DNA of 64,000 bases from Nitrospiraceae bacterium (GTDB lineage Bacteria; Nitrospirota; Nitrospiria; Nitrospirales; Nitrospiraceae): contig JAHBWI010000003.1 in the NCBI GenBank assembly GCA_019637075.1, positions 496,001-560,000 on the forward strand, read 5' to 3'. Each line of letters begins with the position of its first letter. Position 1 is the stretch's first letter. The notes under the pieces were generated by a model that ran no database searches, had not been told where the DNA came from, and worked only from the letters and a program-made list of their open reading frames with translations. Made by a program: the position numbers and the translations under genes. Below are positions 4,993 to 62,570 of this stretch, piece after piece.

Positions 4993-7251
<2,259 letters not shown>

Positions 7252-7261
7252 ACACCGAAAT

Positions 7262-7290
7262 GCGTGAGGCGCCCTCGTGGCGCCTCACGC
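7262..7290. terminator. Perfect 12-bp intergenic hairpin between icd and frdB
   Basis: GCGTGAGGCGCC, loop CTCGT, then GGCGCCTCACGC: a perfect 12-bp, very GC-rich stem with a 5-nt loop starting 11 bp after the icd stop. No T-run follows (TAGACGGATA), so it is not a canonical Rho-independent terminator. It could be an attenuator, an mRNA-processing or stability element, or a weak bidirectional terminator. It covers an upstream ATG in the frdB frame, which supports starting frdB at 7311. Confidence 0.6.
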
Positions 7291-7310
7291 TAGACGGATA
7301 CGAGAAACCT

Positions 7311-8024
7311 ATGGCGCAAGACACCAATGAGAATGTGATTGACCAGCCCGAAGTGGCAAAGCCTCGGATGGTTACAGTGGAAATCGCCGGGAAGAAGTAT
7401 GAGGTGCCTGAGGGGATCACCTTGATGAAGGCCCTCTGGTACACCGGCCAGGAAGTTGTGCGAGGCGCCGGTTGCCTTGGGGGATTCTGCGGTGCCTGTG
7501 CGACCTACTACCGAACCAAGGATGACCCCAAGGTCAAGACTTGTCTCTCCTGTCAGACCGCGGTTCAGGATGGCATGTCGTTTTCGATGATGCCGCCGTT
7601 CCCCGCCCGCAAGGCGACATATCAGATCGCCGAGCTGAAAGATCCTAAGCAGGACTTATTCGCGCTCTATCCCGAAGCACCGCTTTGCCGCAACTGCAAC
7701 GCCTGCACTGAAGCGTGCCCCCAAAAGATCGATGTGCGGGAAGGCGTGTGGAAGGCCGTCTTCGGCGATTTTAAGAGCGTGTCCGAGATGTTTATGGATT
7801 GCGTGATGTGCGGTATGTGCACGCCGGTGTGCATCGCAGACATTGCGCCCAATCTCGTTGCGTTATATGTCAGCCGGGCACAGGGGGCGCACTTTACCGA
7901 GAAACCTCCCAGGTTGGACGTGCGCATTCGAGAAATCGAAACCGGCAAATATACGGCCGAGTGGGATCGTGTTATGAAGATGAATGATGCCGAACTCAAC
8001 AAAGCTTGTGCCGAGTTGAAGTGA
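7311..8024 (+). CDS. frdB: Fumarate reductase/succinate dehydrogenase-type iron-sulfur subunit
   Basis: 237 residues from the ATG at 7311, chosen because an earlier in-frame ATG at 7260 lies in the hairpin. Residues about 20-100 form a plant-type [2Fe-2S] ferredoxin domain with GCLGGFCGACAT and CLSC. The C-terminal part has two cysteine sets, LCRNCNACTEACP and CVMCGMCTPVC. Both are CxxCxxCxxxC, predicting two [4Fe-4S] clusters, whereas classical SdhB/FrdB has one [4Fe-4S] and one [3Fe-4S]. No membrane segment is visible. It is placed directly before the flavoprotein subunit, with which it would transfer electrons for fumarate reduction in the reductive TCA cycle. The electron donor cannot be read from the sequence. 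The family could also be described as a thiol:fumarate-reductase-like or soluble Frd beta subunit. Confidence 0.82.
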   Translation: MAQDTNENVIDQPEVAKPRMVTVEIAGKKYEVPEGITLMKALWYTGQEVVRGAGCLGGFCGACATYYRTKDDPKVKTCLSCQTAVQDGMSFSMMPPFPARKATYQIAELKDPKQDLFALYPEAPLCRNCNACTEACPQKIDVREGVWKAVFGDFKSVSEMFMDCVMCGMCTPVCIADIAPNLVALYVSRAQGAHFTEKPPRLDVRIREIETGKYTAEWDRVMKMNDAELNKACAELK

Positions 8025-8107
8025 CGCGGGCAGCGCTAAATTCCAATACCGAAGCCACACCAATTCCGCCAACGACGAACCCCGAACGACGAGAGACCTG
8101 AATTACA

Positions 8108-9685
8108 ATGGACATCCACAAGTTGCAGGAAATCGTTCACTCCACCCGAGAGGCGCGGCGCAAGCAGACCCTTCCAAAATACGCGCCTGCTGAACGCGAT
8201 CAACTGATCAAGAAGTATCATCCCGACTTCCGTGAGAGCGCCTACCGGCCCATCAAGTTTGGACCGAACGCCGGCGAAATGACGGTTCGTGAGCTGGCGG
8301 CTTTGCTGGAGGGTGAAAGTCCGGTTCCCGGCGATCTGGCGCTCAAGCCAGATTACACGACTGACGTCCTCGTGGTCGGGGGAGGCGGGGCGGGCTGCGC
8401 CGCTGCGCTCCATGCTCATGCGAATGGGTCCAAAGTTATTTTGGCGACCAAGTTGCGATTGGGCGATTCCAACACGGTGATGGCTCAGGGGGGCATGCAG
8501 ATTGCCGTGGCTGACGAGGATTCCCCCGTCACCCACTTCCTCGACACCTTGAAGGGTGGTCATATGAAAAATGATCACCAACTCCTCAAGACTATGGTCG
8601 AGGATGGTCCCTCGGTAGCGAAATGGCTGTTGGGCCTTGGCGTCTTGTTCGATCGGGATTCTGATGGAAACCTGCATGTGAAGAAAGGCGGCGGAAGCTC
8701 GAAACCGCGACTGGTCACATGCTCTGACTACACCGGTCTCGAGATCATGAGGGTCTTAAAGGACGAAGTGCTGAACCAGAAAATCCAGCTCCTGGAGTTC
8801 TGCGCGGCCGTAGAGCTGGTCAGTGATAACGGCGTTTGTACCGGTGCCATCTTCAAGGACCTCGATAACCATCGTTTCGTCGTCGTAGCCGCAAAGACGG
8901 TCGTTTTGGCGACCGGCGGAATCGGCCGGCTCCACATTCAGGGCTTTCCGACCAGCAACCATTATGGGGCGACCGGGGACGGTCTCGCGATGGCCTACCG
9001 TATGGGCGCCAAGCTGATGCATATCGACACCTTCCAGTACCATCCGTCAGGCGCCGTGTATCCGGAGCAGTTGATCGGTGCCTTGGTGACCGAAGGCATG
9101 CGTTCCGAGGGCGGCCACTTGGTAAATGCCAAGGGTGAACGGTTTGTCAACGAGCTCGATACACGAGACGTCGTGTCCTCCTCCATCATTCGCGAGTGCG
9201 AAGAAGGTCGGGGCATTCGCACGATGTCTGGGAGAGTCGGAGTGTGGTTGGATACGCCACTACTGGAGGTTGAGCATGGGCCAGGAACGCTCGATAAGCA
9301 TTTCCCGGCGATGGTGTTGCAGTATGAGCGCTTCGGCATCGATATCTCAAAGGACCCCGTCCTGATCTATCCTACGCTGCACTACCAGAACGGCGGGGTG
9401 AAGATCGATGTGAACGGGGAATCCGACGTCAAACATCTGTTCGTCGCAGGAGAAGCTTCGGGTGGGTTGCACGGACGCAATCGTCTCATGGGCAATTCGT
9501 TACTAGACCTGATGGTCTTTGGAAAACGGTCAGGAACCGTTGCTGCAGAGCGGGCACGAGCAGGGAAACAGGGTCGCCTCACGCTGGATCATCTCACTCG
9601 GTTCCGGGCAGAGGCCAAACAGCACGGGGTCTCATCCGCTGTGGTGTCGCCCATGGTTCTGCCGGCCTATGCACGAAAAGAATAG
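8108..9685 (+). CDS. frdA: Fumarate reductase/succinate dehydrogenase-type flavoprotein subunit
   Basis: 525 residues. The FAD-binding fold starts near residue 85 (DVLVVGGGGAGCAAAL). The substrate and FAD region has the family motifs SNTVMAQGG, TGDGLAMAYRMGAKL, FQYHPSG, HYQNGGVKID, and the C-terminal FAD segment SGGLHGRNRLMGNSLLD. It reduces fumarate to succinate (or the reverse) with FrdB. An N-terminal extension of about 80 residues precedes the dinucleotide fold. No membrane-anchor subunit (FrdC/D or SdhC/D) is next to it; sucC follows after 94 bp. In this operon it supplies succinate for SucCD. The start ATG has only a weak ribosome-binding site (GAGAGACC). Confidence 0.88.
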   Translation: MDIHKLQEIVHSTREARRKQTLPKYAPAERDQLIKKYHPDFRESAYRPIKFGPNAGEMTVRELAALLEGESPVPGDLALKPDYTTDVLVVGGGGAGCAAALHAHANGSKVILATKLRLGDSNTVMAQGGMQIAVADEDSPVTHFLDTLKGGHMKNDHQLLKTMVEDGPSVAKWLLGLGVLFDRDSDGNLHVKKGGGSSKPRLVTCSDYTGLEIMRVLKDEVLNQKIQLLEFCAAVELVSDNGVCTGAIFKDLDNHRFVVVAAKTVVLATGGIGRLHIQGFPTSNHYGATGDGLAMAYRMGAKLMHIDTFQYHPSGAVYPEQLIGALVTEGMRSEGGHLVNAKGERFVNELDTRDVVSSSIIRECEEGRGIRTMSGRVGVWLDTPLLEVEHGPGTLDKHFPAMVLQYERFGIDISKDPVLIYPTLHYQNGGVKIDVNGESDVKHLFVAGEASGGLHGRNRLMGNSLLDLMVFGKRSGTVAAERARAGKQGRLTLDHLTRFRAEAKQHGVSSAVVSPMVLPAYARKE

Positions 9686-47856: not shown

Positions 47857-47949
47857 GTCCCGTTTTCGCATGACGTGGTGAACGACCTCGATGCCGGCGA
47901 ATGCCCGGCATTGTCGTCCGATGTTGGTCGTTCAGCAGGGAGGCTCCAC

Positions 47950-49203
47950 ATGAAACGGATTCCAGTTCTATTTGTATACGTCTGCGTGGTCTTTTCCCTG
48001 GGCGTCCCCTCGGCAGGGTGGACGGCTGATCCGCCATCCGCCGTCTACTCCTTGGGAGATATCCTCGCGTTGGCCGCCGAGCGGAACCCAACCATTGCCG
48101 GGGCCGAGGGACTCGTGAAGCAAAGCCAGGGGCAGCAGATTGCCGCCGGGGCCTATCTCAATCCGTCGCTGACCGGCGTTGCAGGGCGGGGCGCGATCCG
48201 CGACCCGAGCAACGGGGCGCGTGTCACCGAGCGGACGATCACGGTTGAACAACCCTTGGAGTGGTCGGGGAAGCGGCAAGCCCGTCAAGAAGCAGCCGAT
48301 GCGGGGGTGGCCGGGACGAACGCCCTGTTGGAAGAGACCAGGCTGACGCTCGCCTCCGATGTCAAAGTCGCCTTTTTCTCCCTCCTCCTGGCGCTGCGAG
48401 ACGCCGAACTCGCGGCGCAAAATGTGACGCTGGTGGAAGAGGTGCTTCGGACGGTCAAGGCGCGGGTTGCGGCGGGAGAAGCCACCTCGTTCGATACGAT
48501 GAAGGCCGGGGTCGAGGTGCAAAAGGCCCAGAAGGATGTGGCGCGGGCGCAGAACGCCGTGCTCGTGGCGAAATCTCGATTGAATACGCTCACGGCGGGT
48601 GCCCTCGGCAAACAATTCGGCGTGCAGGGAGATTTTCTTTCTCCCAAACCGAATTTGGATGTCGAGGGTCTGGCGGCCAGAGCGGTCGAGGACCACCCGG
48701 CGCTGCGGCGGTTGGGCAAGGTGGCGGAACAAGCCGACCATACGGTCCGCTACGAGCGCGAGTCGCGCGTGCCCAACGTCAGCATTTTGGGGAGCTACCA
48801 CCGCGAGGCGGGAGACGAATCGGTGACCGCCGGGCTGAGCGTCCCACTGCCGCTCTGGTACCGGCGTCAGGGCGAGATCGAAACGGCTATGGGCGCGAAG
48901 TATCGAGCAGAAGCCGAGCGGGCTCGAGCCCGCAATGAATTGGAGCAGGCGATCACGCAGCACACCCAGGAATTGCGCACGGCACAGGATCAACTCCATG
49001 TCTTCGAAACCGGACTACTCAAACAGGCGGAGCAAACGTTGGCGGTAGCCCGCACCAGTTTCCGTCAGGGGGTGGCCAGCTTGCTCGATGTGCTCGATGC
49101 CCAACGAGTCTACCGGCAGACCCTGTTGGAATATGCGCAGGTGCGCGCGGACCTTTCGATTGCCTTGGTGCGATTGGAACGCTCGCTGGGAACCTCGCTG
49201 TAA
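47950..49203 (+). CDS. czcC: TolC-family outer membrane factor of a CzcCBA-type efflux system
   Basis: 417 residues from ATG 47950, preceded by AGGGAGG. It has a signal peptide (MKRIPVLFVYVCVVFSLGVPSAG), then the paired outer-membrane-efflux domains with long coiled coils (LGDILALAAERNPTIAGAEGL, ITVEQPLEWSGKRQARQEAADAG, FRQGVASLLDVLDAQRVYRQT). It forms the outer membrane channel for the RND pump. It is the expected length for CzcC/CusC. It is followed 40 bp later by the adaptor gene. Confidence 0.88.
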   Translation: MKRIPVLFVYVCVVFSLGVPSAGWTADPPSAVYSLGDILALAAERNPTIAGAEGLVKQSQGQQIAAGAYLNPSLTGVAGRGAIRDPSNGARVTERTITVEQPLEWSGKRQARQEAADAGVAGTNALLEETRLTLASDVKVAFFSLLLALRDAELAAQNVTLVEEVLRTVKARVAAGEATSFDTMKAGVEVQKAQKDVARAQNAVLVAKSRLNTLTAGALGKQFGVQGDFLSPKPNLDVEGLAARAVEDHPALRRLGKVAEQADHTVRYERESRVPNVSILGSYHREAGDESVTAGLSVPLPLWYRRQGEIETAMGAKYRAEAERARARNELEQAITQHTQELRTAQDQLHVFETGLLKQAEQTLAVARTSFRQGVASLLDVLDAQRVYRQTLLEYAQVRADLSIALVRLERSLGTSL

Positions 49204-49243
49204 TGGTTTGGAGCGCCTCACAGACCGACAAGGGAGTACGGCT

Positions 49244-50419
49244 ATGATGCCGACCATGCTGATTCGCAGTCTGATCGTCACGGCACTGGCGCTGGCCGGA
49301 TGCGGCGAGCAGGCTCCGGAGCCGGCCGCGGTGCCGCCCAAGGCGGCATCGAAGCCGGCGACCACGGCGGTTCATCTGATCCAGCCGCCGCAGGCGGTGC
49401 GAGATCGGGTGCGGACCGAACCGGTGACGGTGCGCTCGCTCCCGGACCTTGTGACGGCGCCGGGGGAAGTTGCGTTGGATCTTCGTCAGGTCGCGAAGAT
49501 TACCTCGCGGATCGACGGGCAGATCGAACAGGTGCACGTGCAGTTGGGGGACCGGGTCAAGCCGGGACAACCCCTCGCCGCGATCGGCAGCCTGCAGCTC
49601 GATCAGTTGATCGAGGAATACCTGGTCGGCAAGGCGCAGGCCGACGTGGCCGAGAACAGCTTTCACCGGACCGAAAAACTCCGTGCCGACGACATCGTGC
49701 CGGAGCGAAAGTTGGTCGAGGACCGTGGCCGCTATCTGGAAACGAACGCCCGGTACCAGCATATCCGTGAAAAGCTGCTGCATATGGGGCTCTCGCAGGC
49801 CGAGTTGTCCCAATTGGAGCGGGGGCGGCATGACGAAAGCCACCGCTACATCCTGACCACTCCCATCGCCGGCACGGTGGTCGCGCAGAATGCGGTACGC
49901 GGGCAAGGGGTCGCACCGGGAAATGAACTGTTCGAAGTGGTGGATACCAGTCGTGTGTGGGTGTTTGCCAATTTGCCGATCGAACAAGCCAGGAAGTTCA
50001 AGGAAGGGGATGTGGGCACGATCGTGCCCAAAGGCGGAGACCCGGTCATGGCTCCCCTGGTCTATGTGGCGCCGGTGGCGGATGAGGTCACCCGCACCAT
50101 CCACGTAAAGTTTGATGTCACCAACCGCGAGCATGGCCTGAAGCCGCGGGAGTATGTGGATGTGCAATTGTCCGCCGCGGGGCCGCCGGTCACGGCCATC
50201 CCTGTGTCCGCGGTCACCATGGTCGGGGCGGTTAGGGGCGTGTTCGTGCAGCGCGACGGAGGATTCGTCTTCACACCGGTCGAAGTCGGCCGGGAAAGCG
50301 GGGGCTGGACGGAAGTTCGGAAGGGTGTGGCGCCCGAGACGCGGGTGGCCGTCGACGGCGTGTTCGATCTCAAGAACGTGTTGCTCAAGGAGCAGATCGG
50401 TTCGGGGGAGGGCGGCTGA
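49244..50419 (+). CDS. czcB: RND efflux periplasmic adaptor (CzcB/CusB family), lipoprotein-like
   Basis: 391 residues from ATG 49244, with AGGGAG upstream. The signal LIVTALALAGCGEQ has a lipobox cysteine, so it is probably a lipoprotein. The adaptor shows the lipoyl half-motifs (ITSRIDGQIEQVHVQLGDRVKPGQPLAAI and TTPIAGTVVAQNAVRGQGV), a coiled-coil hairpin between them, and a beta-barrel domain (VDTSRVWVFANLPIEQA). It couples the inner membrane pump to the outer membrane channel. The stop is one base from the start of the pump gene, so the two are tightly coupled. Confidence 0.9.
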   Translation: MMPTMLIRSLIVTALALAGCGEQAPEPAAVPPKAASKPATTAVHLIQPPQAVRDRVRTEPVTVRSLPDLVTAPGEVALDLRQVAKITSRIDGQIEQVHVQLGDRVKPGQPLAAIGSLQLDQLIEEYLVGKAQADVAENSFHRTEKLRADDIVPERKLVEDRGRYLETNARYQHIREKLLHMGLSQAELSQLERGRHDESHRYILTTPIAGTVVAQNAVRGQGVAPGNELFEVVDTSRVWVFANLPIEQARKFKEGDVGTIVPKGGDPVMAPLVYVAPVADEVTRTIHVKFDVTNREHGLKPREYVDVQLSAAGPPVTAIPVSAVTMVGAVRGVFVQRDGGFVFTPVEVGRESGGWTEVRKGVAPETRVAVDGVFDLKNVLLKEQIGSGEGG

Positions 50420-50420
50420 C

Positions 50421-53400
50421 GTGGAGCGGCTGTTTGTGCTTTCCCTTCGGTATCGCTTCTTTACGGTCGTGAGCCTGCTCCTGGTGATCGCGCTCGGCCT
50501 GTGGTCGCTTTCGCGCCTGGCCATCGATGCGATGCCGGATCTCACGCCGGTGCAGGTGCAGATCCTTACCAAGGCGCCCTCGCTCGGTCCGGTGGAAGTC
50601 GAGCAGTTCGTCACCTTTCCGATTGAAGCCTCACTGAGCGGATTGCCGGCCCTACGCGAGTTGCGATCGGTATCGCGCTATGGCCTGTCTGCCGTCACCT
50701 GTATTTTCGAGGATCGGACGGATGTCTACCGTGCGCGTCAACTCGTCACGGAACGCCTGGCACGAGCGACGGAACTGATCCCCGCCGAATATGGGCGGCC
50801 GATCGTGGGGCCGCTGACGACCGGACTCGGCGAGGTCTATCAATTCACCCTGCGCGGACCTGGGTATGGGCCGATGGCGCTTCGCACGATGCTGGAATGG
50901 GACATCGGCATGCGTCTGCGCGCAGTTCCCGGCGTGGTGGAAGTGAATATCTGGGGCGGCGAACCGCAGCAGTTTCAAGTGGTGGTGAATCCGGCGAAGC
51001 TCCTCGCGTTCAAGCTGTCACTGCGCCAGGTCTTCGACGCACTTGCGCGCAACAATGCCATCGCAGGAGGTGGGTACATCGAACGTCAACGCGAGCAGCT
51101 GCTCATCCGTGGCGAAGCGTTGGCCACGCAGGTGTCCGATCTCGCGCGCATTGTGGTAGCGCATGGGACAGGGGGCGTGCCGATTTACGTCTCGGATGTG
51201 GCCGAGGTGCGGGAGGGGGCTGGCCTGCGGCTCGGCGCGGCGACGTCGATGGGCGAAGGGGAAACGGTCATCGGCATGGTGCAGATGCTGGCGGGCGAAA
51301 ACGCCCGTGAGGTGGTCGAGCGCGTGAAGGCTCGGGTCAAGGAGATCGAGGCCACGTTGCCCCCCGGCGTCACGATCGAGCCCTATTACGACCGGACGCG
51401 TCTGGTCTCGACCGTGATGCGCACGGTGCGCAACAACTTGCTCGAGGGCGGGATGCTGGTCGTAGCCGTGCTGTTTCTTTTCCTGGGCGACCTCCGCGCC
51501 GGGATCGTCGTGGCGGCGGCCATTCCGCTGTCCATGCTCATTGCCTTCACCGGCATGATGCAGTTCGGGTTGTCGGGGAATCTGATGAGCTTGGGCGCCA
51601 TCGACTTCGGCTTGCTCGTCGACGGGTCGGTCGTGATGGTGGACAACATCCTTCGACGGCTGTCGAAGAAGGGCGTGCTGAGCCGGGAGGCGCGGTTGGC
51701 CGAGGTCTTGGCGGCGGGCCGGGAGGTTCTTCGGCCGATGACGCTCGCCGTCGGCATTATTATTTTGGTGTATGTGCCGATCCTGGCCCTGACCGGCATC
51801 GAAGGCAAGATGTTCCGGCCGATGGCGCTTACGGTCATCCTCGCCTTGGCTGCGTCGCTCGTGCTGTCGATCACCGTCATTCCGCTCCTTTCTTGGTGGT
51901 GGATCACCGTGCAGGGTGGGGAGGAGAACACCGCCCTGGTCCGTGTGGCGCGTCGAGTCTATGAGCCCTGTTTGGCTTGGGCCCTCGCCCGGCCACGGCT
52001 GGTGGTGCTCCCCGCCGTGGGGCTCTTCGCGGCAAGCCTGGGCCTGGCGGCCTGGCTTGGGATGGAGTTCGTGCCTCGGTTGGACGAAGGAGACATGGCC
52101 ATTCAGCTGTGGCGGTTGCCGAGTGTGTCGCTGACGGAATCGGTTCAAAATGCCTCCGATGTCGAGCGGGTATTGCGGCGCTTTCCCGAAGTCGTACAGG
52201 TGGTGACTCGCACGGGAAGTCCCGACGTGGCGACCGACGTCATGGGCGTGGAAATGTCGGATGTCTTCGTCATACTGAAGCCGCAGCGCGAGTGGACGAC
52301 GGCCAGGACACGCGATGACCTCATCGCCAAGATCAAGCCGGCTATTCTGGAGGCGGTGCCCGGCGTCGGATTGGGTTTCACGCAGCCCATCGAGATGCGG
52401 TTCAACGAGTTGATCGCCGGGACACGATCGGACCTTGCCGTCAAAATTTTCGGTCCGGATCTCGACGTGCTCAAACAGCAGGCAGAGGCCGTCGCGCGGG
52501 TCTTGGAGACCGTGCCCGGTGCCGCCGACGTGAAGGTGGAGCAGGTGGCGGGGCTTCCGCTCCTCCGGGTGACCATCGACCGTGAACAGATCGCGCGCTA
52601 TGGACTGACGGCCGACGAAGTATTGGCGTTGGTCCAAACGTCGCGGGTGGGGCGCGTCGTCGGCACCGTCATTCAAGGCTCGCGGCGGTTTGATTTGACG
52701 GTGCGGCTGATCGATCAAGCGTCGGCGGACCCTGCGGCACTCGGGGCCTTGCTGATTCCGACGGCACACGGGGAACTCGTTCCACTCTCGCGCGTGGCCA
52801 CGCTGCGCGTCGACACCGGTCCGGCGCAAATCAGCCGCGAACACGTGCAGCGGAGGATTGTGGTGGAAAATAACATCCGTGGACGCGATTTGGGGAGTTT
52901 CGTGAGGGAGGCGCAACAGGCCGTAGCGCGACAGGTGTCGTTGCCGCAAGGCTATGAGCTGATGTGGGGGGGGCAATTCCAGCATTTGGAAGAGGCCACG
53001 CGCCGGTTGGCCATTGTGGTGCCGATGACGATTCTATTGATCCTCGGCGTGCTGTCCGTGATCTTCGGCGTGATGCAGCCGGCCGCACTGATCTTTCTCA
53101 ATGTGCCGTTGGCCCTGTCCGGCGGGATCGTGGCGTTGTGGCTGCGTGGCTTGCCGATGAGCATCTCGGCCATCATCGGGTTCATCGCTCTGTTCGGGAT
53201 CGCCGTGCTGAACGGGGTGGTGATGGTCAGTCACATCCGGCAACTCGAAATGGAGGGACTCTCGATCGATGAAGCCGTGCGGCAGGGGGCGATGGATCGG
53301 CTGAGGCCGGTGCTCATGACGGCGCTGGTCGCGAGTCTCGGTTTTCTCCCTATGGCGGTGGCGACCAGCATGGGGGCGGAAGTCCAGCGTCCTCTGGCGA

Positions 53401-53522
53401 CGGTGGTCATCGGCGGCCTGTTCACCTCGACCATCCTGACGCTCTTGGTCATTCCAGCGTTGTACCGACGATTCGGCGGGATCCAGGTGGAGCCTGCGAC
53501 GGGGAAGCCAGCGGACCTGTAA
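50421..53522 (+). CDS. czcA: Heavy-metal efflux RND transporter (CzcA-like)
   Basis: 1033 residues from GTG 50421. It is a 12-TM RND pump with two large periplasmic loops. HME-family motifs are ERLFVLSLRYRFFTVVSLLL at the N-terminus, AIDAMPDLTPVQVQI, FGLLVDGSVVMVDNI with the family acidic residue, and GIAVLNGVVMVSHIRQ. The loop segment FTQPIEMRFNELIAGTRSDLAVKIFG is like CzcA/CnrA/NccA pumps (Zn, Co, Ni, Cd) and unlike CusA. The metal cannot be fixed from sequence. It is the last gene of the operon; 111 bp without a gene follow. Confidence 0.9.
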   Translation: MERLFVLSLRYRFFTVVSLLLVIALGLWSLSRLAIDAMPDLTPVQVQILTKAPSLGPVEVEQFVTFPIEASLSGLPALRELRSVSRYGLSAVTCIFEDRTDVYRARQLVTERLARATELIPAEYGRPIVGPLTTGLGEVYQFTLRGPGYGPMALRTMLEWDIGMRLRAVPGVVEVNIWGGEPQQFQVVVNPAKLLAFKLSLRQVFDALARNNAIAGGGYIERQREQLLIRGEALATQVSDLARIVVAHGTGGVPIYVSDVAEVREGAGLRLGAATSMGEGETVIGMVQMLAGENAREVVERVKARVKEIEATLPPGVTIEPYYDRTRLVSTVMRTVRNNLLEGGMLVVAVLFLFLGDLRAGIVVAAAIPLSMLIAFTGMMQFGLSGNLMSLGAIDFGLLVDGSVVMVDNILRRLSKKGVLSREARLAEVLAAGREVLRPMTLAVGIIILVYVPILALTGIEGKMFRPMALTVILALAASLVLSITVIPLLSWWWITVQGGEENTALVRVARRVYEPCLAWALARPRLVVLPAVGLFAASLGLAAWLGMEFVPRLDEGDMAIQLWRLPSVSLTESVQNASDVERVLRRFPEVVQVVTRTGSPDVATDVMGVEMSDVFVILKPQREWTTARTRDDLIAKIKPAILEAVPGVGLGFTQPIEMRFNELIAGTRSDLAVKIFGPDLDVLKQQAEAVARVLETVPGAADVKVEQVAGLPLLRVTIDREQIARYGLTADEVLALVQTSRVGRVVGTVIQGSRRFDLTVRLIDQASADPAALGALLIPTAHGELVPLSRVATLRVDTGPAQISREHVQRRIVVENNIRGRDLGSFVREAQQAVARQVSLPQGYELMWGGQFQHLEEATRRLAIVVPMTILLILGVLSVIFGVMQPAALIFLNVPLALSGGIVALWLRGLPMSISAIIGFIALFGIAVLNGVVMVSHIRQLEMEGLSIDEAVRQGAMDRLRPVLMTALVASLGFLPMAVATSMGAEVQRPLATVVIGGLFTSTILTLLVIPALYRRFGGIQVEPATGKPADL

Positions 53523-53633: not shown

Positions 53634-54260
53634 TCAGCGGTCGTAGTGGAAGGCGATGCCGAACATGAAGAGATTGGCGCGGTAGTCGGCGGTCACGTGG
53701 CTGCGGGTCCAGCTGAACTGGGCGAAGTTGTATTTGTATTCGACGAACGGAGCGATCTTGTCGGTGACGTAGTAGCGAATGCCGGTGAGCACGTTGAAAC
53801 TCGGCGCGAACGAGGCTTCAGGGCGGAAGGTGCCGCTCGAAATATTTCCGACGTTCAGCCCGATGCCCATACCCGCGTAAGGTTCCACCTTATATTGATA
53901 ACCGGTGACACGCACGAGAGCGTTGAAGGCCAGTGAATGAACCAGCAGGTCGGCGCCAGGAATTTTCCCCGATAGGGCCGGGTTGGTGGTGGTGGGGAGT
54001 GTCTGCTGCTTGATCCCCGGCGAGGACCGATACATGTCGAGTTCCAACCCAAACCAGTTATAGCCGCGATCGTTGAAGTAGTGACCGATTTTCCCGCCGA
54101 AATAGGGATTCTTTCCGAGCTCAAGGTTGCCGGAATCCGTGGTGTCCATGCTGGGCAGGTTGAGCCCCGTTCCCAGCGCCACGTAGTTTTCGGCGTTGGC
54201 GAGCGCTGGAAAACTCAAGAGAACCAGCAGAATCAGGACCGCGCAATACCCTCGAACCAT
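53634..54260 (-). CDS. Outer membrane beta-barrel protein, OmpW/OMP_b-brl-like
   Basis: 208 residues. It has a signal peptide of about 23 residues (AVLILLVLLSFPALANA). The mature part is an eight-strand-like barrel: YVALGTGLNLP, YFGGKIGHYFNDRGYNWFGLELDMY, YKVEPYAGMGIGLNVG, FNVLTGIRYYVTDKIAPFVEYKYNF, ending LFMFGIAFHYDR. It has an excellent ribosome-binding site (AAGGAGG) and its own promoter. It lies just downstream of the duplicated barrel protein on the same strand. Function is not known; small barrels of this class are structural or lipid-interacting proteins. Confidence 0.75.
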   Translation of the reverse strand: MVRGYCAVLILLVLLSFPALANAENYVALGTGLNLPSMDTTDSGNLELGKNPYFGGKIGHYFNDRGYNWFGLELDMYRSSPGIKQQTLPTTTNPALSGKIPGADLLVHSLAFNALVRVTGYQYKVEPYAGMGIGLNVGNISSGTFRPEASFAPSFNVLTGIRYYVTDKIAPFVEYKYNFAQFSWTRSHVTADYRANLFMFGIAFHYDR

Positions 54261-54357: not shown

Positions 54358-56619
54358 TCAGCACTGCGTCTCGTTGCGGTGAAGCAGCGTGGGACGCAGG
54401 CAGGAGCCCCGCCAGGACCGGTGGTCCCATGACCAGTTCAGCAGTGCATACTCCGTGTGTGTCAGCCGCTGGTCGATGATGCGGCCGAATCCGCCGATCC
54501 GCAGCGAGAAACCGGCAGGAAGATCCACGTCCTTGAGCATTCCAAACTCGGTAAAATTTCCGGCGAAGTAGGCGGGGTCACCGCGCTCGGTGTTGAATTG
54601 TTCGCCTCGCCATATGGTGACGTAGGGGCGCCAACCGGCCAGGTCTACGCCACCCGTCAATTGGTATCCTCTGCCGCGCGTGATCGGCAAGCTACCCGGT
54701 GTCGGTTCGTTCTGGCTGTTCAAATAGAGGGCCATCACGTCGATTTCGCGAAACCACGGGATCGAGGACCAGTGATCGCCGGGACGGAACGTAAATTGCG
54801 GTCCGAACGCCGTGAGGAAATTGTTGCCCGCAGGACGGTCGCGGGGCAGGCCCGGACCGAAGAAGGTGCGGGCTTCGGAGTATTGCGCGCCGCCGGAATG
54901 GGCCCAGTAGACTTGGCCGTTGAAGGCGAAATAGCCTGCCGCCACTCGTCCGGCATAGCCCACATCAAACCGTTCAGCCTTCTGGAAGGTTTCGATCTGG
55001 TTCCAATTGATGAAGAGATCCTGCTGGTAATGTTCGCGATCGACCAGCATTTGGAACCCCTGCTCGACGGGACGGCTGAAGAGCATGGCATCGTTAAACA
55101 ATGCATCGACGAAGGGATGGTTCCGGTGGATCGTGCCGGCCACCATGGTCGCGCCGGGCAGGAATGTATATTCGGCTGCGAGGATCGGTTGCGCGGTGTG
55201 AAAATGCTGAGTGTCCGCGACCGGCAGCCCGGCGAAGACACCGGCATCGAGCGTCAAGCCGGCTATCGGCATATAGCGCAGGACTGGGGCAAGATACTGT
55301 CCGGCGAAGGTCTGATTCGTGACGGCAAGCGGTCCGGCCTGGCGCAGTCCTGAGTACGCAATGTTGTAGACATACGTCAGCGAATCGAACAGGGCGCTGA
55401 AGCGGCGCTCACCGGCAGGGGATTGAGCCTCGACGAAGGGCTGCGACAATGACGCCCACACATCGCCGGCCAGGTCGGCATGGTTCGTATCCCAGTTCCA
55501 GTTGAAGACGAGATACTCCTGGTTCACCCATTTGAACGTGTCCCGGTTTAGATAGGTGTGGCCGTCTTCGGTAAAGAAGGCGCGGATACGTCGAGTTTGT
55601 GTGCCGAACTCGAGGGAGGCGCGGTTGGTCAACCAGAAGGTCTTGGACAGGCCGACTTCCGGGAAGTTGCTGCTACGGTATTCTGGGTCTCCCTGCAGGC
55701 TCAGGAAATTGCGACCCTTCCAGAACGAGATCCAGGGCCGCCATCCCTCAAGATCCACCCACGTCTGCAGCTCATACCCCCGTCCGCGAGTCGCCTCTGA
55801 GCCGTTGTCGGGTTGATTATAGGTCGTGAGGTAGGTGAAGCGGATTCCCGCCTGTTTCCACCAGGATAGGGCTGAGGCATAACAGGCCGGTTCCAACACC
55901 AACTCCGGTCCGGCCGCGATGACCACGTTATCCCTGGTGTCGAACGATCGGTCCAGTTTAAACAGGGCCTGCCCGTTCCTAACCCAATGGACTTGCCCAT
56001 TGAAGTGCAGCAGGCCGAAGCGCAATTGCCCGGCGTAGCCCACGTCATACCGGTTGGAGGCCGAGCCGCGGAAGGCCTGCTCCCAGTTGATGAAGAGGTC
56101 TTGCCGATAGTAGCGAGAATCAACTAGCATTTGAACCCCCTGCTCGATGGGACGCAGGAAGCGATTGCCGTTGTCGAAGACGGCGTCGTGGAAGTCCCGG
56201 TGCGGAGTGCGGATCGTCCCGGCGACGGCGGTGATCTGGTCGATCGGTTGATAGGTCAAGCGGACGATGGGCCGGACTTGAGACACTTCGGTGTCGTGTC
56301 CGAAGGGCATGTTGGCAAAGACCCCGAGCTCGGCTTCGAGATGGGGAAGCAACCGCCGATAGACGGTCGCGTTGACCAAATTGCCGATGAGCGTCGTATC
56401 GCGGCCGAGTCCGTTGGTGAAGGTGTTGTCCTCGAGGCCTTGTTTCTCGAGGTTGAGCATGAAGGTGCTGACGGAGAAGCGGGCGTCGAGGAGGTGGGGG
56501 CTCGGGTCCGGTTGAGAAACCTCTTGTGAAACCGCGGGTGCAGCAGTGGCAAGGGAGAGGATCGCCCCGAAGACTAAAACGAGTAACGAGTTATATGGCG
56601 ACTGTTTGGGCGGCAGCAC
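54358..56619 (-). CDS. Large outer membrane protein made of two tandem homologous halves, family not recognised
   Basis: 753 residues. An N-terminal signal peptide is visible (YNSLLVLVFGAILSLATAA). The rest consists of two halves that match over most of their length: residues about 45-385 and 405-733, offset 360-370. Matching pairs are EQGVQMLVDSRYYRQDLFINW (159) with EQGFQMLVDREHYQQDLFINW (519) and TRGRGYELQTWVDLEGWRPW (277) with TRGRGYQLTGGVDLAGWRPY (647). Alternating aromatic and polar strands indicate a beta-barrel. It starts with GTG 56619; an in-frame TGA lies five codons upstream, there is no ribosome-binding site, and the promoter predicts a nearly leaderless mRNA. Function unknown. 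Confidence 0.75.
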   Translation of the reverse strand: MLPPKQSPYNSLLVLVFGAILSLATAAPAVSQEVSQPDPSPHLLDARFSVSTFMLNLEKQGLEDNTFTNGLGRDTTLIGNLVNATVYRRLLPHLEAELGVFANMPFGHDTEVSQVRPIVRLTYQPIDQITAVAGTIRTPHRDFHDAVFDNGNRFLRPIEQGVQMLVDSRYYRQDLFINWEQAFRGSASNRYDVGYAGQLRFGLLHFNGQVHWVRNGQALFKLDRSFDTRDNVVIAAGPELVLEPACYASALSWWKQAGIRFTYLTTYNQPDNGSEATRGRGYELQTWVDLEGWRPWISFWKGRNFLSLQGDPEYRSSNFPEVGLSKTFWLTNRASLEFGTQTRRIRAFFTEDGHTYLNRDTFKWVNQEYLVFNWNWDTNHADLAGDVWASLSQPFVEAQSPAGERRFSALFDSLTYVYNIAYSGLRQAGPLAVTNQTFAGQYLAPVLRYMPIAGLTLDAGVFAGLPVADTQHFHTAQPILAAEYTFLPGATMVAGTIHRNHPFVDALFNDAMLFSRPVEQGFQMLVDREHYQQDLFINWNQIETFQKAERFDVGYAGRVAAGYFAFNGQVYWAHSGGAQYSEARTFFGPGLPRDRPAGNNFLTAFGPQFTFRPGDHWSSIPWFREIDVMALYLNSQNEPTPGSLPITRGRGYQLTGGVDLAGWRPYVTIWRGEQFNTERGDPAYFAGNFTEFGMLKDVDLPAGFSLRIGGFGRIIDQRLTHTEYALLNWSWDHRSWRGSCLRPTLLHRNETQC
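54421..56487 (-). repeat. Internal duplication in the large outer membrane protein
   Basis: Repeat 1 is encoded at about 55465-56487 (residues 45-385) and repeat 2 at about 54421-55407 (residues 405-733). The halves share conserved blocks in the same order but differ in many positions, indicating an old gene-internal duplication. Confidence 0.8.
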
Positions 56620-56737: not shown

Positions 56738-58159
56738 GTGGTAGTGGAAAACCGGTCGGGGGGTACGTTGCCGGGGAATACCATATCTGGGGCAGAAGTC
56801 GACCCTGGGTTTGAACATGAACAGGTACGTCTGGGTACGACGCTGTCCGTGATCACCGTGGCCCAAATCCTGAGTGCGTTCGGAATACAGTGGTACACAA
56901 TTGCGCACCTTGGAGTAGGCATGGATGCGGATGCTTTGTATGCAGGGGCAACTTTGCCTCAAGCAGTAACGGTGTTGCTGATGGAACCGCTTGGATTCGT
57001 ACTCATTCCGTTTCTGTCATCCAAAGGAGAGTCTGAGCGGAACAGGCTTGCATGGCCGCTTGTATCCGGAATCGGGGTCTTGTCGGTCGTAGCTACGGTG
57101 GTCCTGATTTTTCTGGCTCCCCCGACGGTACGCATTCTGGCCCCAGGTCTCACTGAATTTGGCATGAATTTGACGGTGCAGTTGGCGCAGATTCAACTGC
57201 TCGGGGTTATCGGCGGTGCCTGCGGAACAGTGTTGGTTGCGCTGTCGCAAGCCAGGGGGCAGTTCGTATGGCCGGCCCTGTCGTTGGTGCTCGCTACCCT
57301 AGGGGGATGGGGAGCGCTGGTTGCGGGGCTTGATCACTGGGGGGTTCGATTCGCTGCATGGACGCAGGTTGGGATAACCACCTTCTCGGCCGTCATCCTA
57401 CTCCCCACCCTTGGACGACCGACCATGGCGGCGCTGCGAGAAATGCCTGCTGTGCTTTACAACGTAGGGGTGAAGATGCGGCCGCTTGTTATCAGCGTGT
57501 CATACAGCCGTTCGGGCTTTGTCGTGGACCGATTTCTGGCTTCGCTTCTCAGCCCCGGCAGTATCACGATCCTAGATTTTGTCTTGAGAATCCATTCAGC
57601 GATGAGCCGTGTCCTCAACCACGGCGTGGCAGCTCCTGTAATCCCGACCATGGCTCGGTTCGCAAATGAGGGGGCATGGAGTGCTTTCAATGCGCTGTGG
57701 CGACGAAGGGCTTGGTGGATGGGGTGTTTGAGTTGTGGCGCAAGTTTGCTGCTTGTTCTGACAGCGGTTGGCCTATACCAGACAAGCGTTCTGGAGTATT
57801 GGGGCATCTATGGAAAGGTAAATCCGAATGATTTCGTGAATATCTGGGGCGTTCTTGTGGGGTGTTCTGGTGTCCTCTGTGCGGCTGGGGTGAGTCACAT
57901 TTTTGTCAATGCGTTTTATGCCCAGGGCGATATGGCTCTCCCTGCGAAAATTGAGATTGGTACATACACCACTGGCTTAATCTTCAAGGCGTTTGGTCTT
58001 TGGTGGGGCGGCCTTGTGGGCATCGCAGCTGCGATCAGTGCGTATTACCTGCTGACTAGCGTCGTGTTGGGTGTGGTGCTCAATCGACGTGTCGGAAGGC
58101 AACTCTTAGTGGCGACCTCTGTGGGCGTCACTGGCTCCGTATTCGAGGTAAGACGGTAG
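56738..58159 (+). CDS. MurJ/MviN-like lipid-linked oligosaccharide flippase
   Basis: 473 residues with about 12-14 membrane segments. The overall pattern is that of MurJ/Wzx flippases: a first helix VTVAQILSAFGIQWYTIAHLG, then LYAGATLPQAVTVLLMEPLGFVLIPFLSS, and a polar helix SRSGFVVDRFLASLLSPGSITILDF. In this setting it probably moves a lipid-linked polysaccharide unit across the inner membrane. MurJ for peptidoglycan is usually elsewhere, so a polysaccharide role is favoured. It begins with GTG 56738 (GTG 56744 possible) and ends six bases before the amidotransferase gene, forming the first gene of the polysaccharide locus. Confidence 0.75.
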   Translation: MVVENRSGGTLPGNTISGAEVDPGFEHEQVRLGTTLSVITVAQILSAFGIQWYTIAHLGVGMDADALYAGATLPQAVTVLLMEPLGFVLIPFLSSKGESERNRLAWPLVSGIGVLSVVATVVLIFLAPPTVRILAPGLTEFGMNLTVQLAQIQLLGVIGGACGTVLVALSQARGQFVWPALSLVLATLGGWGALVAGLDHWGVRFAAWTQVGITTFSAVILLPTLGRPTMAALREMPAVLYNVGVKMRPLVISVSYSRSGFVVDRFLASLLSPGSITILDFVLRIHSAMSRVLNHGVAAPVIPTMARFANEGAWSAFNALWRRRAWWMGCLSCGASLLLVLTAVGLYQTSVLEYWGIYGKVNPNDFVNIWGVLVGCSGVLCAAGVSHIFVNAFYAQGDMALPAKIEIGTYTTGLIFKAFGLWWGGLVGIAAAISAYYLLTSVVLGVVLNRRVGRQLLVATSVGVTGSVFEVRR

Positions 58160-61147: not shown

Positions 61148-61178
61148 GTTTCAATCGCTCGATTTGGGGGATGGAACT

Positions 61179-62570
61179 GTGCCGTATTATTTGCTGCTCG
61201 GGGGAGGAACGGTTGTCATTGCCTTCTTGGCCTTCTTGATTTGGAGGAGGACGAAAAGCCTCGCCATCCTGACCGGCCTCGCCATGATGTACTACTGGTC
61301 GTTGTTCGGCGCATGGTCGATTGTGAGCGATCGTCTGGCCGGTGTCGGGGGCAAATCGTATGGCTATCTGGAGGAGAAGCTCTTTCCGGTGAATCTGGAC
61401 GGGAGCTATTTCAGCGCGTTGATTCTTTACGTGGGATTCATCCTTGTCATTGAAGTCTGCTTATTGATGCGCGTCCGAGGTAGGACATCGAGTGGCATCC
61501 ACCTCAAGTCTCCAATCCGAGTTAATCACGTTGTCCTGCTGGGATTCGGTGTCGTTTGCGGCGTGGTGAGCTATTGGCTTGTCAGAGAATCCCTTGAAAC
61601 CGCTGAAGGGCTAAATCTGTCGGGGTACGCGGTAACGCGCGGGATGCTGGGCGAGGCCGTTCCCTTCTTCACGATCCATCAGCTCTTGAATCGAGGAGCG
61701 TTTTTGTCCGCCGCGATCGGATTAGCCGTGGCGGTAAGCGGGCGTCACCCTCGTGTGTTTGTTGGCCAAAGGAACCGGATTGCCATGGTTGGGTACACAG
61801 TACTGATCGGTGGTCTCATTTGGTTTGCCCTCATGCTTGGCAACAAAAATGAGTTGTTGTTTGCTGGGGTAGTGGGGATGCTTTTGTACGAAGCGAATGC
61901 TCAAAAGAAGCGACTGGTGGGGGTACTGATGGCAGCTCTCGTTGGAGTAGCCATCTTGCGGGTAATCGACACTGTGCGCGGTCTGCCTCTTTCCGCTGTG
62001 GCAGGAGCGCTTGTCGACGTGGAGCCGTCTCAATGGTTTGATCTTGCGCAACTGCTGTTCTCAAGTAATGAGGCTTATGCGGCCCATTTTTCACTGTACG
62101 GTGCATTATCGCTGAAGGTTCCGCTCACCTACGGTCAGAGCCTGATCAGCGGGATGGCGTCCATCGTTCCAAGAGCTGTGTGGCCGGACCGTCCTCCCGA
62201 TATTTATTATTACTATGCGGAGCAAGTGGGGGCGGCAGAAGGACAGGGGTACACAATTCATCATGCAGCCGGATGGTATCTGAACTTCGGCATACTAGGT
62301 GTCGCGATTGGGGCGCTCGTATGGGGCTATGTGTGGGCAGCATGCATATCAGCTCCGGAGAAGTGGTCAGAGCAAGATTCACAGTTCGCCGGAATTTGCA
62401 GATTGATTGCCCCCACGATGTTCGTCGCGAGCATTCCGATGCTGATGCGTGTTGGTGTCGAGGGATACAAGGGCTTGCTGGTGGAAGGGTTGCTGATACC
62501 GACCATGATTCTCGTCTGTGGCTCTTGTCGTTGGGGCTGGCCTGCTGGGTCGGCAACGTCGCGTGCATAA
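61179..62570 (+). CDS. Polysaccharide polymerase-like integral membrane protein (Wzy/O-antigen-polymerase type)
   Basis: 463 residues from GTG 61179, with GGGGGATGG just upstream; a TTG at 61164 is less likely. It has about 10-12 membrane segments. A large loop in the second half carries SGMASIVPRAVWPDRPPD and EGQGYTIHHAAGWYLNFGILG, which resembles Wzy-type oligosaccharide repeat polymerases. These join repeat units in the periplasm on the undecaprenyl carrier. Wzy proteins are poorly conserved, so the call rests on topology, size and the neighbouring flippase and transferases. An O-antigen ligase is an alternative. Confidence 0.75.
   Translation: MPYYLLLGGGTVVIAFLAFLIWRRTKSLAILTGLAMMYYWSLFGAWSIVSDRLAGVGGKSYGYLEEKLFPVNLDGSYFSALILYVGFILVIEVCLLMRVRGRTSSGIHLKSPIRVNHVVLLGFGVVCGVVSYWLVRESLETAEGLNLSGYAVTRGMLGEAVPFFTIHQLLNRGAFLSAAIGLAVAVSGRHPRVFVGQRNRIAMVGYTVLIGGLIWFALMLGNKNELLFAGVVGMLLYEANAQKKRLVGVLMAALVGVAILRVIDTVRGLPLSAVAGALVDVEPSQWFDLAQLLFSSNEAYAAHFSLYGALSLKVPLTYGQSLISGMASIVPRAVWPDRPPDIYYYYAEQVGAAEGQGYTIHHAAGWYLNFGILGVAIGALVWGYVWAACISAPEKWSEQDSQFAGICRLIAPTMFVASIPMLMRVGVEGYKGLLVEGLLIPTMILVCGSCRWGWPAGSATSRA

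Follow-up and report, generated by a model that had tools for sequence, protein, structure and literature searches.

A duplicated LpxZ-related outer-membrane protein in Nitrospira with a possible role in lipopolysaccharide remodelling

LpxR and PagL, which LpxZ resembles in its action, are lipid A deacylases that form outer-membrane barrels of 12 and 8 strands, respectively. LpxZ of P. gingivalis (PGN_1123; NCBIfam profile NF052651) is described as a lipid A deacylase on the basis of the phenotype of a deletion mutant (PMC11784228). Proteins in which complete outer-membrane barrels are fused are rare but known, and include MnoP (TC 1.B.4.2.2) and three-domain proteins such as the three-barrel TC 1.B.4.1.1; the multi-barrel examples described are all from Alphaproteobacteria (PMC4827864). 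Here we analyse a Nitrospira protein that touches on each of these systems. Like LpxR and PagL it is predicted to be an outer-membrane protein that acts on lipid A, but its barrels would be larger. Like MnoP and the three-barrel protein it would carry two complete barrels in a single chain, but MnoP joins barrels of different families, whereas the Nitrospira barrels are duplicates of each other. Finally, the one-half-length LpxZ profile (371 positions) matches both of its halves, with the residues E, G, Q, D and N-W in common; unlike LpxZ, the Nitrospira protein contains two copies per chain, and its role as a deacylase is a prediction.

The gene lies in a 64,000-nucleotide stretch of a Nitrospiraceae contig (JAHBWI010000003.1), hereafter the window. 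Its parts and its two conserved or notable neighbours are, in window positions:

54358..56619, (-) strand: two-half outer-membrane protein of 753 aa with a GTG start, defined by the ORF and by orthologues in 18 Nitrospira loci (66-76% identity)
56524..56619, (-) strand: probable signal peptide, residues 1-32, read from the sequence as a hydrophobic core followed by APAVSQ, with a helix predicted at residues 8-25
55486..56487, (-) strand: N half, the putative first barrel, residues 45-378, from the half-versus-half alignment and the strand pattern in the full-chain model; 76% mean identity in 19 copies
56380..56454, (-) strand: stretch specific to the N half, NLEKQGLEDNTFTNGLGRDTTLIGN, residues 56-80; 98% mean identity in 19 copies
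56083..56220, (-) strand: LpxZ-like core motif of the N half, GT...H140...E159xGxQ163...D174...N178W179, from alignments and an LpxZ profile match at residues 113-323
55405..55485, (-) strand: variable linker, residues 379-405; 35% mean identity, with length differences between copies
54424..55404, (-) strand: C half, the putative second barrel of about 16 strands, residues 406-732, from an AlphaFold2 model of the half and Foldseek comparison with 16-18-strand porins
55003..55137, (-) strand: LpxZ-like core motif of the C half, GT...H501...E519xGxQ523...D534...N538W539, from alignments and the LpxZ profile match
54361..54423, (-) strand: C-terminal tail past the last predicted strand, residues 733-753, conserved in 19 copies
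53634..54260, (-) strand: downstream gene for a small outer-membrane barrel of 208 aa (OMP_b-brl PF13505, Pfam 2.8e-9), probable partner
56738..58159, (+) strand: divergent gene for a MurJ-like flippase (PF03023, 1.4e-30), which opens a polysaccharide cluster and is followed by asparagine synthase and glycosyltransferase genes

An initial annotation, made from the sequence alone, had read this chain as two homologous halves, and the ORF, the alignment of the halves and shuffled controls all agree with it. BLASTP aligns residues 46-377 with residues 409-732 at 122/345 identities (35%, E 3e-64), and the half-versus-half Smith-Waterman score of 508 stands against a mean of 37 (SD 5.3, maximum 53) over 500 shuffles. 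The four motif blocks named in the annotation were each found in both halves. At the DNA level a clear match between the halves is confined to two short stretches (79 and 71 bp, 72-77%), which argues that the duplication is old. In a tree of the halves and their relatives, where joins between long branches are uncertain, the N halves form one group and the C halves another (support 100/100 and 100/99); the duplication is thus older than the divergence of these Nitrospira species. The tail that follows the C half reads W-R-G-F-C-L-R-P-T-L-L-H-R-x-E-S-S-C, and its cysteines C740 and C753 are invariant in the 19 copies. Such a conserved two-cysteine tail is an unusual C-terminus for a barrel.

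The family had been left as unknown in the initial annotation. Profile searches instead identify both halves as distant relatives of LpxZ. The full chain matches the LpxZ profile in two stretches (2.3e-16, 59.6 bits), and the halves taken singly score 34.7 and 30.5 bits, the N half covering profile positions 104-316 of 371 (E 1.6e-7), that is, most of the profile. In an alignment that combines halves with single-half proteins, all 18 members are matched. The matches range from 18.7 to 69 bits, the latter for the best relative, and all lie far below the curated cut-off of 460 bits. When the profile was run over 396 Nitrospirota genomes (E 1e-4), it retrieved members of this two-half/single-half family only, a result that speaks against a signal common to barrels in general. 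The residues behind the match were examined by changing conserved positions of one single-half protein (from genome G338) and rescoring. The score dropped by 10.1 bits for N-W, 4.7 for D, 4.6 for Q, 4.2 for G, 4.1 for E, 2.8 for E-R and 2.6 for H, while the D of H-D cost 0.8 bits and the D of R-F-D nothing. These drops define an E-x-G-x-Q ... D ... N-W core common to both families. The D of ERFD is among the most conserved residues in Nitrospira, yet the LpxZ profile gives no credit for it. Other collections returned little: in Pfam the window protein matched no family at E 1 or better, LpxR and PagL included; among the 18 alignment members Pfam reported Tet_JBP only (3/18, best E 0.029) and neither LpxR nor PagL; and the window protein had no PHROGs match.

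A single scan of bacterial and archaeal contigs yielded 18 loci, all from records titled Nitrospira or Nitrospiraceae and all of the two-half form, and neither half is broken in any of the 19 copies compared. The initial annotation had also raised the questions of paralogues and of single-half versions. A paralogue search found no second copy in the source organism's own genome, so the gene is single-copy there, whereas stand-alone one-half genes do occur elsewhere in Nitrospirota. Among the relatives and the 396 Nitrospirota genomes, G010, G026 and G338 have genes that encode one half alone (about 375-475 aa), and G013 has fragments. In G218 a single-half gene next to an LptF/LptG gene is split into two ORFs (L079:3049-4150) and is either broken or misassembled. 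In G336 two single-half genes lie side by side (L077:5935-7056 and 7056-8216; 374 and 387 aa), each with a leader-like start; the second matched LpxZ weakly, and the first gave no LpxZ match in a separate scan. This pair resembles a pre-fusion stage, although the proteins are distant and the Nitrospira form need not descend from such a pair. A search of a plasmid collection found no relative.

The existence of stand-alone genes indicates that one half is sufficient as a protein, and this bears on how the chain may fold. The AlphaFold2 model of the full chain (19 aligned rows) is poor, with a mean pLDDT of 48.9 and a pTM of 0.33, and its Foldseek matches have an rmsd of 17 Å or more; it nevertheless displays one strand order twice. 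Modelled alone from 38 aligned halves, the C half forms 16 strands (pLDDT 68.4, pTM 0.70). This model aligns end-to-end with the complete 16-18-strand porins OmpM1, OmpC, PorB, AlgE and OprD (TM 0.5-0.6); the identity to these porins is 8-12%, and no sequence-family match links them to the protein. Sequence searches of solved structures found no relative. Taken with the single-half genes and the variable linker, the porin-sized model makes two separate barrels in one chain the simplest reading. An even number of strands would place both ends of each barrel in the periplasm, where the linker is thus expected to lie. The initial annotation had weighed a tandem double barrel against one very large barrel and considered both unusual. 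The evidence favours the tandem form, even with a poor full-chain model, and the arrangement is indeed rare, although it has a published precedent (PMC4827864).

The gene's surroundings were compared across loci. The 208-aa barrel gene lies directly downstream in 17/18 collected loci as well as in the window, and among the 396 genomes a close orthologue of it (66% identity or more) accompanies the two-half gene wherever the latter occurs (21 genomes) and is also present in one further genome, G017. In the latter (L086, G017:C159), 268 bases separate the orthologue from the contig end, and they contain no recognisable end of a two-half gene. Upstream gene content differs from locus to locus; where examined, the divergent genes begin with one for a MurJ-like flippase, behind which come glycosyltransferase, heptosyltransferase or asparagine-synthase genes, and many copies of the two-half gene have flippase and glycosyltransferase genes as neighbours. 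The source genome encodes LpxC, a late acyltransferase and LptD. Together, the neighbourhood and these LPS genes are consistent with an LPS-related role for the two-half protein. Two further features of the window were recorded. A CzcCBA-type metal efflux set (outer-membrane factor, membrane-fusion protein and RND pump; 47875-53522) adjoins the gene and falls outside the conserved neighbourhood, and a 468-aa protein in the polysaccharide cluster (61164-62570), possibly a polymerase, has no Pfam match.

On these grounds we tentatively favour a tandem LpxZ-related outer-membrane protein made of two complete barrels and acting on the cell's own LPS, where each barrel may deacylate lipid A. The LPS-acting role is drawn from the LpxZ core shared by both barrels (H, E-x-G-x-Q, D, N-W), the LpxZ profile match and the neighbourhood. 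In such a scheme, the signal peptide would direct export, and the chain would fold in the outer membrane into two whole porin-sized barrels, one after the other, with about 16 strands apiece and a short linker between them in the periplasm. The likely substrate would be surface lipopolysaccharide in the outer leaflet of the same cell, and each of the two putative sites might strip one acyl chain from lipid A. The fuller version, in which two fused LpxZ-type barrels form a lipid A-remodelling enzyme with two active sites, members of the LpxZ superfamily occur outside Bacteroidota and BAM assembles both barrels from one chain, is more doubtful and, on present evidence, somewhat unlikely.

A possible alternative is a tandem double porin, that is, two fused diffusion channels or polysaccharide- or LPS-associated pores that have the LpxZ-related fold and no enzymatic activity. 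Predicted strands 5 and 6 flank the conserved H-to-E segment; porin loop L3 has the same position, and the segment could then serve as a porin-type constriction loop. General porins, AlgE and OprD match the C-half model about equally, polysaccharide genes are often adjacent, and the published fused barrel MnoP is described as a Mn2+ outer-membrane pore protein (PMC4827864). Against this, the sole sequence-family match is to LpxZ and to no porin family, and fold matches are unspecific among barrels of similar size.

We regard it as rather improbable that only one half is active and the other is a degenerate copy with a structural role. Conservation is slightly higher in the C half than in the N half (mean identity across 19 copies 82% vs 76%, with 35% for the linker), and the almost invariant stretch of residues 56-80 has no counterpart in the C half. 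The latter asymmetry suggests a separate constraint on the first barrel. However, neither half has lost any of the LpxZ-type core residues, and nearly all of these are present in 19/19 copies. Least probable is one very large barrel, with about 32 strands contributed by both halves together: an engineered duplication of the 8-strand OmpX did yield one larger pore (Arnold et al. 2007, as cited in PMC4827864 and PMC6340704) and the full-chain model is poor, but single-half relatives stand as separate genes, one half alone is modelled as porin-sized, the halves are set apart by about 27 variable linker residues and each half closes with its own conserved terminal strand (EYLVFNWNWD and EYALLNWSWD).

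Returning to the tandem LpxZ-related protein, what is new with respect to the open-licence literature searched is the duplicated LpxZ-type barrel and its occurrence in Nitrospirota; because fusions of complete barrels have already been published, it is novel as a variant of a known arrangement. Two-barrel chains are rare, and a duplicated one offers a clean test of how BAM handles a client with two terminal strands. If the LpxZ link is functional, remodelling of lipid A would be a trait conserved among these nitrite oxidisers. They face no vertebrate immune system, and the trait would then point to an envelope-related role.
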